Of a stretch of DNA of 60,234 nt, positions 1,711 to 37,563 are shown piece after piece (positions within the stretch are counted from its first letter, which is position 1; each line of letters starts with the position of its first letter). The stretch spans positions 1 through 60,234 of the IMG/VR virus record IMGVR_UViG_3300037961_004087. The stretch is one strand, 5' to 3'. The position numbers and the translations under genes were made by a program. The DNA is from a virus. Below the pieces are notes generated by a model that did not search any database, had not been told where the DNA came from, and saw only the letters and a program-made list of their open reading frames with translations.

Positions 1711-1950
1711 GATTGTAGACGTTGTTATTGAAACAACGCAGGACGCGAGTTCGACTCTCGCCGCCTCCACTTACCAAACCAAGGGGGCGTAATGGTATCG
1801 ACTGGTTGCGTAGGTAATGACTGCAATCCGAGGTTGGTCAGTTGGCCTCGTAAAAAGCTGACTAAATTTTAATTGCAGATGAAAGTCTCGCATTGGCAGC
1901 GTAAGTTGTCTGGGGAGTTGCCCGTCCTTATTATCCAAACGGGCTTTTAT
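1711..1950 (+). ncRNA. ssrA: Circularly permuted (two-piece) tmRNA
   Basis: The tRNA-like 3' piece comes first. Its T arm is GCGAG-TTCGACT-CTCGC (1745-1761), followed by CGCCTCC (1762-1768) and discriminator A. After a 13-base loop (1770-1782) the 5' piece begins with GGGGGCG (1783-1789), which pairs with CGCCTCC through one G-U. P2 forms between GATTGTAG (1711-1718) and CTGCAATC (1821-1828). A 6-bp hairpin lies at 1721-1737. PK1 is an H-type pseudoknot: CGAGG/CCTCG (1829-1833 with 1846-1850) and GTCAG/CTGAC (1837-1841 with 1858-1862). The block TTGGCCTCGTAAAAAGC matches E. coli tmRNA as I remember it. The tag frame at 1875-1904 reads ADESLALAA then TAA, a typical protease tag ending. The order (acceptor, loop, coding piece) is that of two-piece tmRNAs, whose loop is removed after transcription. 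CCA is not encoded. tmRNA rescues stalled ribosomes and tags the nascent protein. Confidence 0.93.
1920..1948 (+). terminator. Rho-independent terminator of the tmRNA
   Basis: GCCCGT (1920-1925) pairs with ACGGGC (1939-1944) around a 13-base loop and is followed by TTTT. It follows the tag stop codon and probably forms the 3' end of the coding piece. Confidence 0.65.
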
Positions 1951-32958: not shown

Positions 32959-34584
32959 ATGAATTGGTTTCCACTACTGAACTATACTCACTATTCACTA
33001 CAATACGGCTTTTCAAAGCCAAATGAGCTTGCTAAAAAATGCAAGCAAAACTCTTACCCTGCATGTGGTATTGCTGACTATAAAACAATCAGCGGTGCTG
33101 TATCTTTCTATAAAGCCTGCATCAACAATGATATTAAACCTATCATTGGCTGTTCTTTCGATGGCTTTACTCTTTTTGCCAAAAACCATGCGGGGTGGTT
33201 GAACCTCATCGAGATTGTCTCTACAATTGATGCAGATGGTAATGAGGACAGGGGAACGATTATAAAATTAGCGAGACAAGGCAATCTGATCTGTATTGCA
33301 AAGTCTGAGGCTTTGTCTCCGGTTTCCGGTGATGATTTTTACATCTGGTCTGAGGCTTTTACAAAAAGCAATTACGTAAATAAAGACCAAGCAGATTTAC
33401 ATAGAATTGTGCTTTGTGGAAAACTAAAAACGACCTTTCATAAAGTTAAAAAGAACGGACCACCCGAAGAATTAGCTCCATACTTTGAATCTAGTGAGTT
33501 CTATATTAAAGATAAGTCAGAGTCTGCTAAACTAATTGTTGATGACCCACGTATGGATGATTTCGATTCTATATTTAAAAAGGTAGAAAACTATAATATT
33601 CTCAGCAAACCGATGCTGCCCAGATTTGATATCCCAAGTAAATTTTCTAGTGAAGGTGACTATCTACGTCATCTTGCTAGGCAGGGTTGGATGAAACTAC
33701 TCAATGACAAAATTCAAAGCGAAGAGCAGCGTAAGGTGTACGGTGACAGATTCAATAAAGAGTTTTCGGTTATTGAAAAAGCAGATCTGTTCGGTTACTT
33801 CCTAATCGTCTGGGATATTTTAAATTGGTGTCGGGAGCAGGGTTGGATGGTGGGTCCGGGTCGTGGATCTGCTGCTGGTTGCCTAATCTCTTACCTAGTT
33901 GGTATCACAGAGATTGACCCCATTGAGTTCGATCTGTTGTTTGAACGATTCTACAATGAGGGTCGTAACACAGAAGATCACATCTCTTTGCCCGATGTTG
34001 ACATGGATGTTCCGGGTAAGAAGCGAGATGAAATAATTACTAGACTAAAGGAAAAGTACGGGTCTGATAATGTTAGTCAAATGCTTACATTTGGTAGACT
34101 GCAAGGGCGAAGTGCGATGAAAGAGGTGCTTCGTGTAAACGATGCCTGTGGCTTTGCCGAAATGAACGAGATCACAAAGTACATTCCAGACGAAGCTGCT
34201 ATCTCTGACCAACTTGCAGAGATGGACGAAGAAGACCGCTCTATTATTCGTTGGGCACTAATTAATCGTTCCGACGACCTGATGGACTATTGTCACCTAA
34301 ATGATAATGGAAGTCTTGAAGGTGATTTTGCAGAATACTTCCAACAAGCTATTGATATTGAAGGTACATTTAAAACACAGGGTAAACACGCTGCTGGTGT
34401 TGTTATATCCGCTGAACCACTATTTAGAGTTTGTCCTATGGTAAACCCAAAGAGTGGTGATGAAAAGATCGCGGGACTAGAAATGAACGACCTAGAAGCA
34501 CTAGGACATGTTAAGTTTGATCTTTTAGGGTTGAACTTATTGGATAAATTAATGCATATTAAGGAGCTTATTAATGAATCGTGA
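32959..34584 (+). CDS. dnaE: DNA polymerase III alpha, N-terminal half (PHP and palm)
   Basis: 541 residues. The first part is a PHP domain with altered metal residues: LNYTHYSLQYG (usual HxHxxYS lacks the first His) and ADYKTIS (usual ADHG). The palm has GWMVGPGRGSAAGCLISYL, LPDVDMDVPGKKRDEI (two catalytic Asp), GRLQGRSAMKEVLRV, and VKFDLLGLNLLDKL (third catalytic Asp). The protein then ends, where DnaE would continue with the FQLES region. That continuation is the separate gene at 35998. No intein motif is visible at the break. All three catalytic Asp are therefore in this half. Confidence 0.93.
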   Translation: MNWFPLLNYTHYSLQYGFSKPNELAKKCKQNSYPACGIADYKTISGAVSFYKACINNDIKPIIGCSFDGFTLFAKNHAGWLNLIEIVSTIDADGNEDRGTIIKLARQGNLICIAKSEALSPVSGDDFYIWSEAFTKSNYVNKDQADLHRIVLCGKLKTTFHKVKKNGPPEELAPYFESSEFYIKDKSESAKLIVDDPRMDDFDSIFKKVENYNILSKPMLPRFDIPSKFSSEGDYLRHLARQGWMKLLNDKIQSEEQRKVYGDRFNKEFSVIEKADLFGYFLIVWDILNWCREQGWMVGPGRGSAAGCLISYLVGITEIDPIEFDLLFERFYNEGRNTEDHISLPDVDMDVPGKKRDEIITRLKEKYGSDNVSQMLTFGRLQGRSAMKEVLRVNDACGFAEMNEITKYIPDEAAISDQLAEMDEEDRSIIRWALINRSDDLMDYCHLNDNGSLEGDFAEYFQQAIDIEGTFKTQGKHAAGVVISAEPLFRVCPMVNPKSGDEKIAGLEMNDLEALGHVKFDLLGLNLLDKLMHIKELINES

Positions 34585-35248
34585 CATTATTGTATTTGAC
34601 TTTGAAACTGGTGGACGCAATCCGCATAGGTGTCAGCCTACACAGATTGCTGCTATCGCACTTGACGGTAGGAACTTTAGACTCAAGGGACAATTCAATA
34701 GTCTCATGCGTCCCATTATCGACGACGAGAAAGCAATTAAAGCTGGCGTTGACCCGCTAGAAGAAGGTGCTTTGAAAGTTACAGGTCAGACCAGAGAGAA
34801 GCTGGCTAAAGCACCACTTCCAAAGGGTGTATGGAAAAAGTTCTGTGCGTTTGTAGACAAATATAACTGGAAAGGCACATCTTACTTTGCACCTATTCCA
34901 TGTGGGTTTAATATTCTTGGTTACGATATGCACATTGTGAATAGGTTGTGCGAACAGTACGGACCCTATGACGATAAGCGTAAATGTCAAAAGTTATTTC
35001 ATCAAATCTACAAGATAGACGTGATGGATGATGTATGGTTATGGACGGAGGGTGATCCAAATGTTAAGTCTATTAGTATGGATAGCTTGCGAGAAAGAAT
35101 GGGACTGTCCAGTGAGAACGCTCACGATGCTCTCCAAGACGTTAAGGATACAGCAAACATCTGGATCAAATTGCAAAAGTCCAGACGAGCAGTCTACAGA
35201 AACATGAAATTTGAAAAGGCATTTGCCGATGGCAAACTTTTTGTATAG
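34574..35248 (+). CDS. DnaQ-like DEDDh 3'-5' exonuclease
   Basis: 224 residues. Exo I is IIVFDFETGGRNPH (DFE), Exo II is PCGFNILGYDMHIV, and Exo III is ENAHDALQDVKDTANIW (HD...D). This is the DEDDh fold of proofreading exonucleases. It overlaps the end of the polymerase N half by 11 bases. With the PHP site of that half degenerate, this enzyme is the likely proofreader. It has no clamp-binding motif that I can see. Confidence 0.9.
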   Translation: MNRDIIVFDFETGGRNPHRCQPTQIAAIALDGRNFRLKGQFNSLMRPIIDDEKAIKAGVDPLEEGALKVTGQTREKLAKAPLPKGVWKKFCAFVDKYNWKGTSYFAPIPCGFNILGYDMHIVNRLCEQYGPYDDKRKCQKLFHQIYKIDVMDDVWLWTEGDPNVKSISMDSLRERMGLSSENAHDALQDVKDTANIWIKLQKSRRAVYRNMKFEKAFADGKLFV

Positions 35249-35281
35249 TTTCGTTGTAAATACTTTTAAAGGAGGATTTTA

Positions 35282-35992
35282 ATGGGTGTTTATCAATGGG
35301 ATCAGTTTGTTGATTATAAAGGCATCAAACTGTTAGACGGGCGAAGTACAATACCTCATTTACCAATAGAGTCTCACGATGATGAGTACGATATGTTTAT
35401 GAGTGTGCTAGAAAATGTTAAAAACGATAATCCGGTAATGATAGAGTGTGGCTCTTGGTGGGCGTTTTGGTCACTAGCTTTCAGAAAAAAGTTTCCTGCT
35501 GGCAGAAACATTTTGATCGAGTTGGGCAAGCGTCAAATTTCTATGGGAAGAAAGAACTTCGCACTAAACGGTCTTGATGCATCTCACTACTGGGGAGGTT
35601 TTTACATTAACGATTCTAATGTATACGAACCTACGGTAAGAGAAAGTAACTACAACTATGACGATCATGGTGGTTATTGGGATACGACCCTATCTGGTCA
35701 AATGACCGGCCCAGAAATTAACTTTACAGACGTTTACGAGATTGAGGGGCTAGATGAAATTGATATGCTGCACATGGATATTCAAGGCAGCGAATATAAA
35801 TTAATTGTTGATTTGTATAACAATAATCGAGATGTTTTAGATAAGATTCAGAATGTTGTTATTGCTACTCATCACCCAGTTGCACAGCAAGAATTAATTA
35901 GAATCCTTATGAGCAACGGAATGAGACTATTGAGAAATGAGCCATTCGGGAGTGTGGGTGGCGATGGAATGATCGCTTTAACTAGGAATTGA
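35282..35992 (+). CDS. FkbM-type methyltransferase within the polymerase block
   Basis: 236 residues. A Rossmann start NPVMIECGSWWAFWSLAFRK is followed by NILIELGKRQISMGRKNFAL and the FkbM signature DEIDMLHMDIQGSEYKLIVD. Family members O-methylate sugars or small molecules. AAAGGAGG before the ATG predicts strong translation. It sits between the exonuclease and the polymerase C half, although all other FkbM-type genes here are in the glycan cassette, so it looks inserted. Confidence 0.85.
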   Translation: MGVYQWDQFVDYKGIKLLDGRSTIPHLPIESHDDEYDMFMSVLENVKNDNPVMIECGSWWAFWSLAFRKKFPAGRNILIELGKRQISMGRKNFALNGLDASHYWGGFYINDSNVYEPTVRESNYNYDDHGGYWDTTLSGQMTGPEINFTDVYEIEGLDEIDMLHMDIQGSEYKLIVDLYNNNRDVLDKIQNVVIATHHPVAQQELIRILMSNGMRLLRNEPFGSVGGDGMIALTRN

Positions 35993-35997
35993 ATTAT

Positions 35998-37563
35998 ATG
36001 ATTGAGAGAGATGACACAAAGGCTTGGGCTTTGTATAAGGATGGACTGACCAAGGGGTTGTTTCAGCTTGAGAGTAATCTTGGGCGAGCTTGGTCGAAGA
36101 GGGTTGCACCGGAGAGTATGGAAGAATTAGCGGCATTAATCGCTATCATCAGACCCGGAACGTTGAAGGCGGTTAGTGACGGAAAGTCTATGACACAAAG
36201 ATTCGTAGACCGTAAACATAAGAGAGAAGATGTTGTATATCTTGACCCTAGTCTAGAAGAAATTCTAAAGACTACGCATGGCGTACTTGTATACCAAGAG
36301 CAGGCTATGCTTATCGCGGTTAAAGCTGCGGGATTCAATGAAATGGAGGCAGACAACCTTCGTAAAGCTATTGGTAAAAAGAAAGCGTCTCTCATGGCTG
36401 AGATTCGTGGACAATTTATTGAAGGCTGCAAAAAGATTGGACTTGTAGATCAAGACACTGCAAACCAGATTTTTGACTGGATTGAAAAATCATCTAGATA
36501 CTCTTTCAATAAGTCTCATGCCGTAGCTTACGCAGTTAATTCGTACAACTCTGCTTGGTTCAAAGCTAATTACACCAAAGAGTTCTTCTTGTCGTACCTG
36601 TACTATGCGAATGAAAAGATGGACCCTCACCAAGAAATCTATGAGCTAGTAAACGAAGCTAAACTATTCGATATATTGGTAAAGACCCCTAAACTAAGCA
36701 GGTTCTCTGAGAAGTTTGCCATCTTTGGTGATGATATCCAGTTTGGAGTTCGTGACGTTAAAGGTCTTACAGGTGTTACTGGTGAGAAAGTCTTAAAGGC
36801 TATTGGCGATTCAGCAGAAGAGTTGGGCAAGCCTGCCGACGAGTTTACTTGGATGGATGTACTTATCTACATCGCCCCCAAGATTACGTCTACGGCTTTC
36901 AAGGCACTCGCCGGTATTGGATTCTTCTCTACCAAATCAACTGGAGTGACTAGGAATCAAGCTCTTTACGAATACCTCATTTGGAGAGAACTAACAAAAG
37001 CAGAAGTCAAGTGGGTAACAGAGAATTATCCTAAAAAGAAGTGGTCAAAACTACAGGATTGTTTCAGAGATCTGTCTCCCACCAAGAAAATGGGAGGTGG
37101 CTGTAGCAACGCTAATCGTAGTCAGATTGTACATGGTGAAATTGAGATGTTAGACAATCCACCATACGATATGGCTGATGAGCCACAGTGGGTTATCGCA
37201 GAAGAGGTAAAACTCTTGGGTTGCCCTGTGTCATATCAGTACACAGATGCTATAGACGCATCAATCGCTAACACTACATGTCAAGAAGTAGCCAACGGCA
37301 AGTTTGGCAAAGATATTTGCATTGTAGCAAATGTTCAACGTGTAGCTAATCATAAGATCAATAAAAAGAATAGCAAGCAGAAGGGTCGAACTATGTCGTT
37401 TCTAACAATAGAAGATGCTACTTGCTCGCTTGACAATGTTATCATTTTTCCAGACGCCAGAGATAAGTACCAGTTTGTTTTATATGAAGGAGCGAACCTG
37501 ATGCTTTGCGGCGAGATCGAGAAAGATAATTCGTTTATTGTTGACAAAATTCATGAAATCTAG
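35998..37563 (+). CDS. dnaE: DNA polymerase III alpha, C-terminal half (fingers and beyond)
   Basis: 521 residues. It resumes the DnaE alignment with KGLFQLESNLGRAWSKRV, ELAALIAIIRPGTLKAVSDG, YQEQAMLIAVKAAGF, EADNLRKAIGKKKASLMAEI and FNKSHAVAYAVNSYNSAWFK. Near the C terminus is an OB-like strand set (GRTMSFLTIEDATCSLDNVI). No catalytic Asp motif of the palm is present. The ATG at 35998 is ten bases after AGGA. It must associate with the N half at 32959 to make an active polymerase, which is inferred. Confidence 0.92.
   Translation: MIERDDTKAWALYKDGLTKGLFQLESNLGRAWSKRVAPESMEELAALIAIIRPGTLKAVSDGKSMTQRFVDRKHKREDVVYLDPSLEEILKTTHGVLVYQEQAMLIAVKAAGFNEMEADNLRKAIGKKKASLMAEIRGQFIEGCKKIGLVDQDTANQIFDWIEKSSRYSFNKSHAVAYAVNSYNSAWFKANYTKEFFLSYLYYANEKMDPHQEIYELVNEAKLFDILVKTPKLSRFSEKFAIFGDDIQFGVRDVKGLTGVTGEKVLKAIGDSAEELGKPADEFTWMDVLIYIAPKITSTAFKALAGIGFFSTKSTGVTRNQALYEYLIWRELTKAEVKWVTENYPKKKWSKLQDCFRDLSPTKKMGGGCSNANRSQIVHGEIEMLDNPPYDMADEPQWVIAEEVKLLGCPVSYQYTDAIDASIANTTCQEVANGKFGKDICIVANVQRVANHKINKKNSKQKGRTMSFLTIEDATCSLDNVIIFPDARDKYQFVLYEGANLMLCGEIEKDNSFIVDKIHEI

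Follow-up and report, generated by a model that had tools for sequence, protein, structure and literature searches.

Two-piece tmRNAs, encoded by circularly permuted genes, have already been described in phages. Of the 133 unique phage tmRNA structures counted in the report on the Methylophilales phage Melnitz, 53 were two-piece, 50 of these from marine or aquatic phages (PMC9004378). A second survey, PMC11915505, reports in the part of its text considered here 79 phage tmRNAs and 11,946 permuted tmRNAs, and describes group I introns that carry LAGLIDADG genes, one spacer that contains a tRNA-Ala and another that contains a repetitive element.

We analysed a viral contig record of 60,234 bases (IMGVR_UViG_3300037961_004087), hereafter the window, in which a phage-encoded permuted tmRNA had been proposed from the sequence. 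That original prediction called such a copy in a phage striking, which was an overstatement in view of the published 53 of 133 and of the Kyanoviridae myophages Melnitz, HTVC008M and Mosig (the last two infecting Pelagibacter), all of which score above the cut-off of the Rfam permuted-tmRNA model RF04321, as the window does. These three are T4-like phages of marine type, like the phage of the window, and the tag ends in their group (ANDNYVPVDYALAA, ANFNEYALAA and GEDNFALAA) are similar to that of the window. However, CCA is encoded in their genes and their spacers are much longer, whereas the window gene has no CCA and a spacer of 13 nt. The tRNA-like domain of the window is also of beta type, with the T loop GTTCGA, unlike theirs. 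The betaproteobacterial two-piece tmRNA (RF01850) is alike over its full length, down to the CCTTRTTAYCCAAA loop that caps the 3′ hairpin; the window differs from it in its short tag (ADESLALAA), in the lack of an encoded CCA and in a score just below the model's cut-off.

Model matches and parts of the tmRNA gene

Searched across the whole window on both strands, RF04321 (tmRNA_permuted) matches positions 1711–1904 over the full model (1–213) with 96.2 bits against a cut-off of 47 and E = 2e-17. This E-value and the covariation described below rule out a chance match, and a standard one-piece tmRNA is ruled out by the order of the parts, with the 3′ piece lying ahead of the 5′ piece. ARAGORN independently called a permuted tmRNA (tmRNA*) at 1680–1995 with the tag ADESLALAA*. 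The proposed arrangement of a 3′ piece followed by a 13-base loop and the 5′ piece is borne out at the stated positions. The parts of the gene, with the neighbouring tRNA, are as follows.

1711–1769, + strand: tRNA-like 3′ piece (acceptor piece) with the P2 5′ strand (RF04321 alignment, pair coordinates)
1711–1715 and 1824–1828, + strand: P2 tip, GATTG/CAATC
1745–1761, + strand: T arm, with stem 1745–1749/1757–1761 and loop TTCGACT
1762–1768, + strand: acceptor 3′ strand CGCCTCC, followed by the discriminator A at 1769
1770–1782, + strand: intervening spacer CTTACCAAACCAA, 13 nt (sequence, spacer table)
1783–1828, + strand: tRNA-like 5′ piece, comprising the acceptor 5′ strand, the D-loop analogue and the P2 3′ strand (RF04321 alignment)
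1783–1789, + strand: acceptor 5′ strand GGGGGCG
1829–1862, + strand: H-type pseudoknot PK1 (covariation), with S1 CGAGG/CCTCG (1829–1833/1846–1850) and S2 GTCAG/CTGAC (1837–1841/1858–1862)
1875–1904, + strand: tag frame GCAGATGAAAGTCTCGCATTGGCAGCGTAA, with resume codon GCA at 1875, ADESLALAA and stop (ARAGORN, translation)
1920–1950, + strand: terminal hairpin GCCCGT/ACGGGC followed by TTTTAT, terminator-like (alignment of relatives, coordinates)
2154–2226, + strand: tRNA-Asn (GTT), no CCA encoded (ARAGORN; Rfam RF00005, 73.6 bits)

The acceptor stem, GGGGGCG/CGCCTCC, pairs at all seven positions and contains the alanine identity pair G3.U70 (G1785 opposite T1766). With the intact T arm and the covarying pseudoknot, it upholds the expectation that acceptor stem, P2, T arm and H-type pseudoknot would form. 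PK1 stands ahead of the resume codon, and the tag frame, which had been read correctly as ADESLALAA, starts with this alanine codon and ends with a protease-type hydrophobic tail and a stop. The sequence encodes no CCA, and removal of the spacer at 1770–1782 is predicted by analogy with the known processing of two-piece tmRNAs. Thermodynamic folding energy was unremarkable (z −1.56) in a calculation that cannot display the pseudoknot, so the evidence for the gene comes from the covariance models and covariation.

Among the older subtype models, RF01850 (beta_tmRNA) fits best, aligning over its full length (331 model positions) to 1669–1970 with 83.6 bits, 0.4 bit below its cut-off of 84. RF01849 (alpha_tmRNA) reached 52.1 bits against a cut-off of 50 over model positions 40–278 of 355 only. 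We rejected the alpha subtype because this match, though above cut-off, is weaker than the beta match and the gene lacks the alpha T loop. Judged by these models, the window tmRNA is closest to the betaproteobacterial type.

Covariation and spacers among relatives

Relatives were collected from viral contigs by exact patterns covering the acceptor-5′ region, the T arm plus short spacer, and the tag. Pairs were counted by anchored positions, as the MAFFT alignment placed the 3′ strand of PK1 one column off. All 25 distinct relative sequences keep PK1 S1 fully complementary, and they comprise five types (CGAGG, CGTAG, GCTGG, CGTGG and ACTGG), each with its own partner strand; the second stem also varies in step. 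Compensatory changes occur in the 3′-terminal hairpin (CCCG/CGGG versus CCAG/CTGG) and, elsewhere in the group, in the acceptor stem (e.g., GGGCGTG/CACGTCC and GGGGATG/CATCTCC). At the level of sequence, the window gene is confirmed as a phage-encoded two-piece tmRNA gene, another case of a published gene type.

The loop had also been described as very short, a feature that proved not to be distinctive: spacers in relatives span 5, 7, 9, 12, 13 (many), 15, 23, 29, 70 or 123 nt, and 13 nt is ordinary for the family. The 5-nt spacer, CTTAC, occurs in L054, L056, L060, L062 and others; L054–L056 and L060–L062 combine it with an alpha-like tRNA-like domain and the window's tag cassette. Most members of the window clade encode no CCA, their spacers beginning with CTT, ATT, TTT or similar, while in most other phage genes found the spacer begins with CCA. 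The 123-nt spacer of L004, L005, L007 and L017 contains a T-arm-like stretch, GAGGTTCAAATCCTC, which is perhaps a tRNA remnant.

Genome context

T4-like replication genes on the same contig, the viral nature of the record and the orthologous locus in other viral contigs assign the tmRNA to a phage rather than to its host's DNA, as had been proposed. Its genes include ribonucleotide reductase (RNR) subunits, PhoH, a UvsX-like recombinase, a DnaB-like helicase, primase, dCMP deaminase, SSB and DNA polymerase, and the RNR large subunit is nearest to those of Pelagibacter phage Mosig and cyanophages (55–57% identity). The phage collection contained no nucleotide match to the 22-kb middle part, and no close DNA relative was found among 50,697 phage records. 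The gene is flanked by a 134-aa ORF on one side and by the tRNA-Asn and dCMP deaminase on the other. The order ORF–tmRNA–deaminase recurs in the viral contigs L003, L006, L008 and L060, whose deaminases are 90, 92, 92 and 85% identical, and adjacency of tmRNA and deaminase is kept in relatives whose deaminase identity ranges from 92% down to 57%.

Two small ORFs (1414–1677 and 1970–2143) flank the window tmRNA; their products are a Cys-rich peptide, probably exported, and a very basic peptide of 57 aa. The ORF at 1970–2143 is absent between tmRNA and deaminase in L003. Elsewhere in the window, the DNA polymerase at 32959–37563 is split into two ORFs (32959–34584 and 35989–37563), between which lie an RNase_T-type exonuclease ORF (34574–35248) and a possible FkbM-type methyltransferase ORF (35282–35992). 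A 749-aa ORF at the contig end (57929–60178, − strand) has no PHROG or Pfam match.

A scan of genome contigs matched only a contig of a SAR202 MAG (L019, VFHP01000007.1). It carries a permuted tmRNA whose tag, GVENYAMAA, also occurs in viral contig L013, and its tRNA set is much like that of L013. The permuted tmRNA of this contig is probably phage DNA within a bacterial bin.

Independent exchange of tag and tRNA-like domain

Comparison with the window reveals a mosaic make-up. In L003 and L006 the tRNA-like 3′ piece is 93–95% and the 5′ piece 95% identical to those of the window, yet the tag is only 67–70% identical and encodes AEPC[LF]ALAA. Conversely, L054, L055, L056, L060 and L062 have the window's tag cassette with tRNA-like pieces that are only 48–59% identical; these pieces are alpha-like and, outside L055, have the T loop GGCAGTA and GGGGGTGAAATAGATTCGAC. 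Tag identity among these relatives is by selection, as 26 tag bases served as the search key. The unselected contrast is that L060 lies at the same locus, next to a deaminase 85% identical, and yet its tRNA-like domain belongs to another class. The simplest reading of these sequences is that the tag cassette and the tRNA-like domain have been exchanged independently.

An endonuclease gene in or beside the tmRNA genes of relatives

Three relatives (L057, L058 and L059) carry the exact 26-base tag pattern, with no ARAGORN call and only 19–26 bits against RF04321. Their 3′ pieces are situated about 604 nt upstream. The tmRNA halves are separated by an ORF of 180 aa, the end of which (CGG GGG TGA) is the acceptor 5′ strand. 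PHROG profiles matched the ORF as endonuclease (2e-28), endonuclease VII (3e-16) and HNH endonuclease (2e-12); Pfam gave no match to it, and the HNH assignment rests on the PHROG profiles. Its predicted structure was a poor model (mean pLDDT 54.5).

A wider search for the endonuclease returned 80 loci, although several contigs are near-duplicates and the counts overstate independence. In 12 of them (L096–L106 and L109, L096 being the L057 region), a permuted-tmRNA spacer of 588–618 nt is taken up by an endonuclease ORF of about 180 aa that runs with its final codons into the acceptor 5′ strand. All 12 have a tag frame and an acceptor stem paired perfectly over 7 bp, with G3.U70, and four carry the exact tag peptide of the window. 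Acceptor pairs are compensated across the insert, with G-C or C-G at 4:69 and U-A or C-G at 6:67. ARAGORN made no tmRNA call at any of the 12 loci; given this and the sub-cut-off RF04321 scores of the three relatives tested, phage tmRNAs are probably under-counted.

At 45 of the 80 loci (L117–L119, L121, L123, L126 and most of L128–L170), the endonuclease begins 5–76 nt after a standard phage tmRNA, with several tag types represented. A T arm with an acceptor end lies within 130 nt upstream at 60 of 78 loci, where other stretches of these loci would predict 0.85. As read from these sequences, both gene forms follow a single rule: the endonuclease lies just 3′ of the acceptor end, a position that is the spacer in permuted genes. 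Homing would be the natural explanation of this placement. On balance we favour a model in which the permuted-tmRNA spacer is the nesting site of a tmRNA-specific, HNH-type homing family that inserts 3′ of the acceptor end. The insert would be harmless downstream DNA in standard genes and would be discarded by tRNA processing in permuted ones, so that the mobile element could be tolerated without an intron. The window gene would then be an endonuclease-free allele in a shared pool within which tRNA-like domains and tag cassettes are exchanged.

The window gene itself has no endonuclease insert, and no convincing homologue of the spacer endonuclease was found there. Three crAss-like phages have endonuclease homologues with no tmRNA adjacent, so the association is not exclusive. 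A match in Myxococcus phage Mx1 was set aside: it is a standard tmRNA, and the HNH gene directly after it has no detectable kinship to the spacer endonuclease.

Many of the standard-tmRNA loci with the endonuclease have a 24-aa tag, AKTAKYKGHISARVSLVEMTASVA, and such a long conserved tag is unusual. At many loci (e.g., L096, L105, L111, L116, L125 and L158) a TGTATAAT-like promoter lies between the tmRNA end and the endonuclease start. Its flank is complementary to the Shine-Dalgarno region, as in CTGGGTC/GACCCAG of L158, and this stretch could silence read-through translation of the endonuclease. The longest Shine-Dalgarno complement averages 5.8, against 5.0 with swapped partners and a maximum of 5.5 in 200 swaps, which lends moderate support to a putative Shine-Dalgarno-hiding hairpin as a property of the group.

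We found no report of an endonuclease gene in a tmRNA spacer in the open-access literature, and none in the portion of PMC11915505 considered. The intron-bearing tmRNA genes described in that portion share with the 12 loci (not with the window) an endonuclease nested in a tmRNA gene. There, however, LAGLIDADG genes reside in self-splicing group I introns in the T loop, whereas here an HNH-type gene occupies the permuted spacer and would leave by tRNA-type processing. The spacer-borne endonuclease is the more novel part of this work and belongs to the relatives, not to the window.

Proposed working of the window tmRNA

Taken together, the intact and covarying parts indicate that the window very probably encodes a functional two-piece phage tmRNA, betaproteobacterial-like in type. 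A single precursor would be transcribed from it and cut by host RNase P before G1783, while host 3′ processing would trim back as far as A1769, where the CCA-adding enzyme of the host would append CCA. The 13-nt spacer would thereby be released, leaving two RNAs joined by the acceptor and P2 helices. After charging by host AlaRS, host SmpB and EF-Tu would bring the tmRNA to ribosomes stalled on non-stop mRNA. Translation would resume at GCA 1875, add ADESLALAA and terminate, and the LAA end would send the tagged product to host proteases such as ClpXP. An SmpB gene was not found in the window (weak evidence of absence in a 60-kb fragment), or in 25 further related records, including HTVC008M and ones of 166.8, 162.7 and 147.3 kb; host SmpB must therefore serve, if the RNA works. 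The likeliest benefit would be the supply of ribosomes during degradation of host and phage mRNAs. The original prediction suggested that the RNA may recycle host ribosomes late in infection or tag host proteins for decay. Similar roles have been proposed for the Melnitz tmRNA, where they were placed early in infection (PMC9004378).

The phage RNA might instead mainly compete with host trans-translation, titrating SmpB or altering the tag, rather than rescue ribosomes. A DS6A-like phage RNA consisting of the tRNA-like domain only inhibits endogenous tmRNA (PMC4131195; also the portion of PMC11915505 considered), tags differ between phages with a near-identical tRNA-like domain (AEPC[LF]ALAA versus ADESLALAA), and the window and the 25 records yielded no phage SmpB. 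A pure decoy, however, would need neither the complete, maintained tag frame, nor the resume context, nor the LAA ending found here, and we consider competition as the main role unlikely. Capture of a functionless host gene fragment or pseudogene, for instance through tmRNA-targeted integration, was considered by the Melnitz authors (PMC9004378), tmRNA genes being common integration targets, but is highly improbable here, as both halves, the stems, the pseudoknot and the tag are all intact and show covariation, which largely refutes it, and as the phage locus is conserved, with orthologues of the gene in other phages.

Rescue with host partners thus remains our preferred reading, and the window would represent a clean, covariation-backed case of a phage with its own ribosome-rescue RNA, dependent on host protein partners. 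The separate swapping of tRNA-like domain and tag may serve as a natural experiment on which parts of a tmRNA have to suit the host. In the wider family, the spacer of permuted genes would plausibly act as a refuge for mobile genes.
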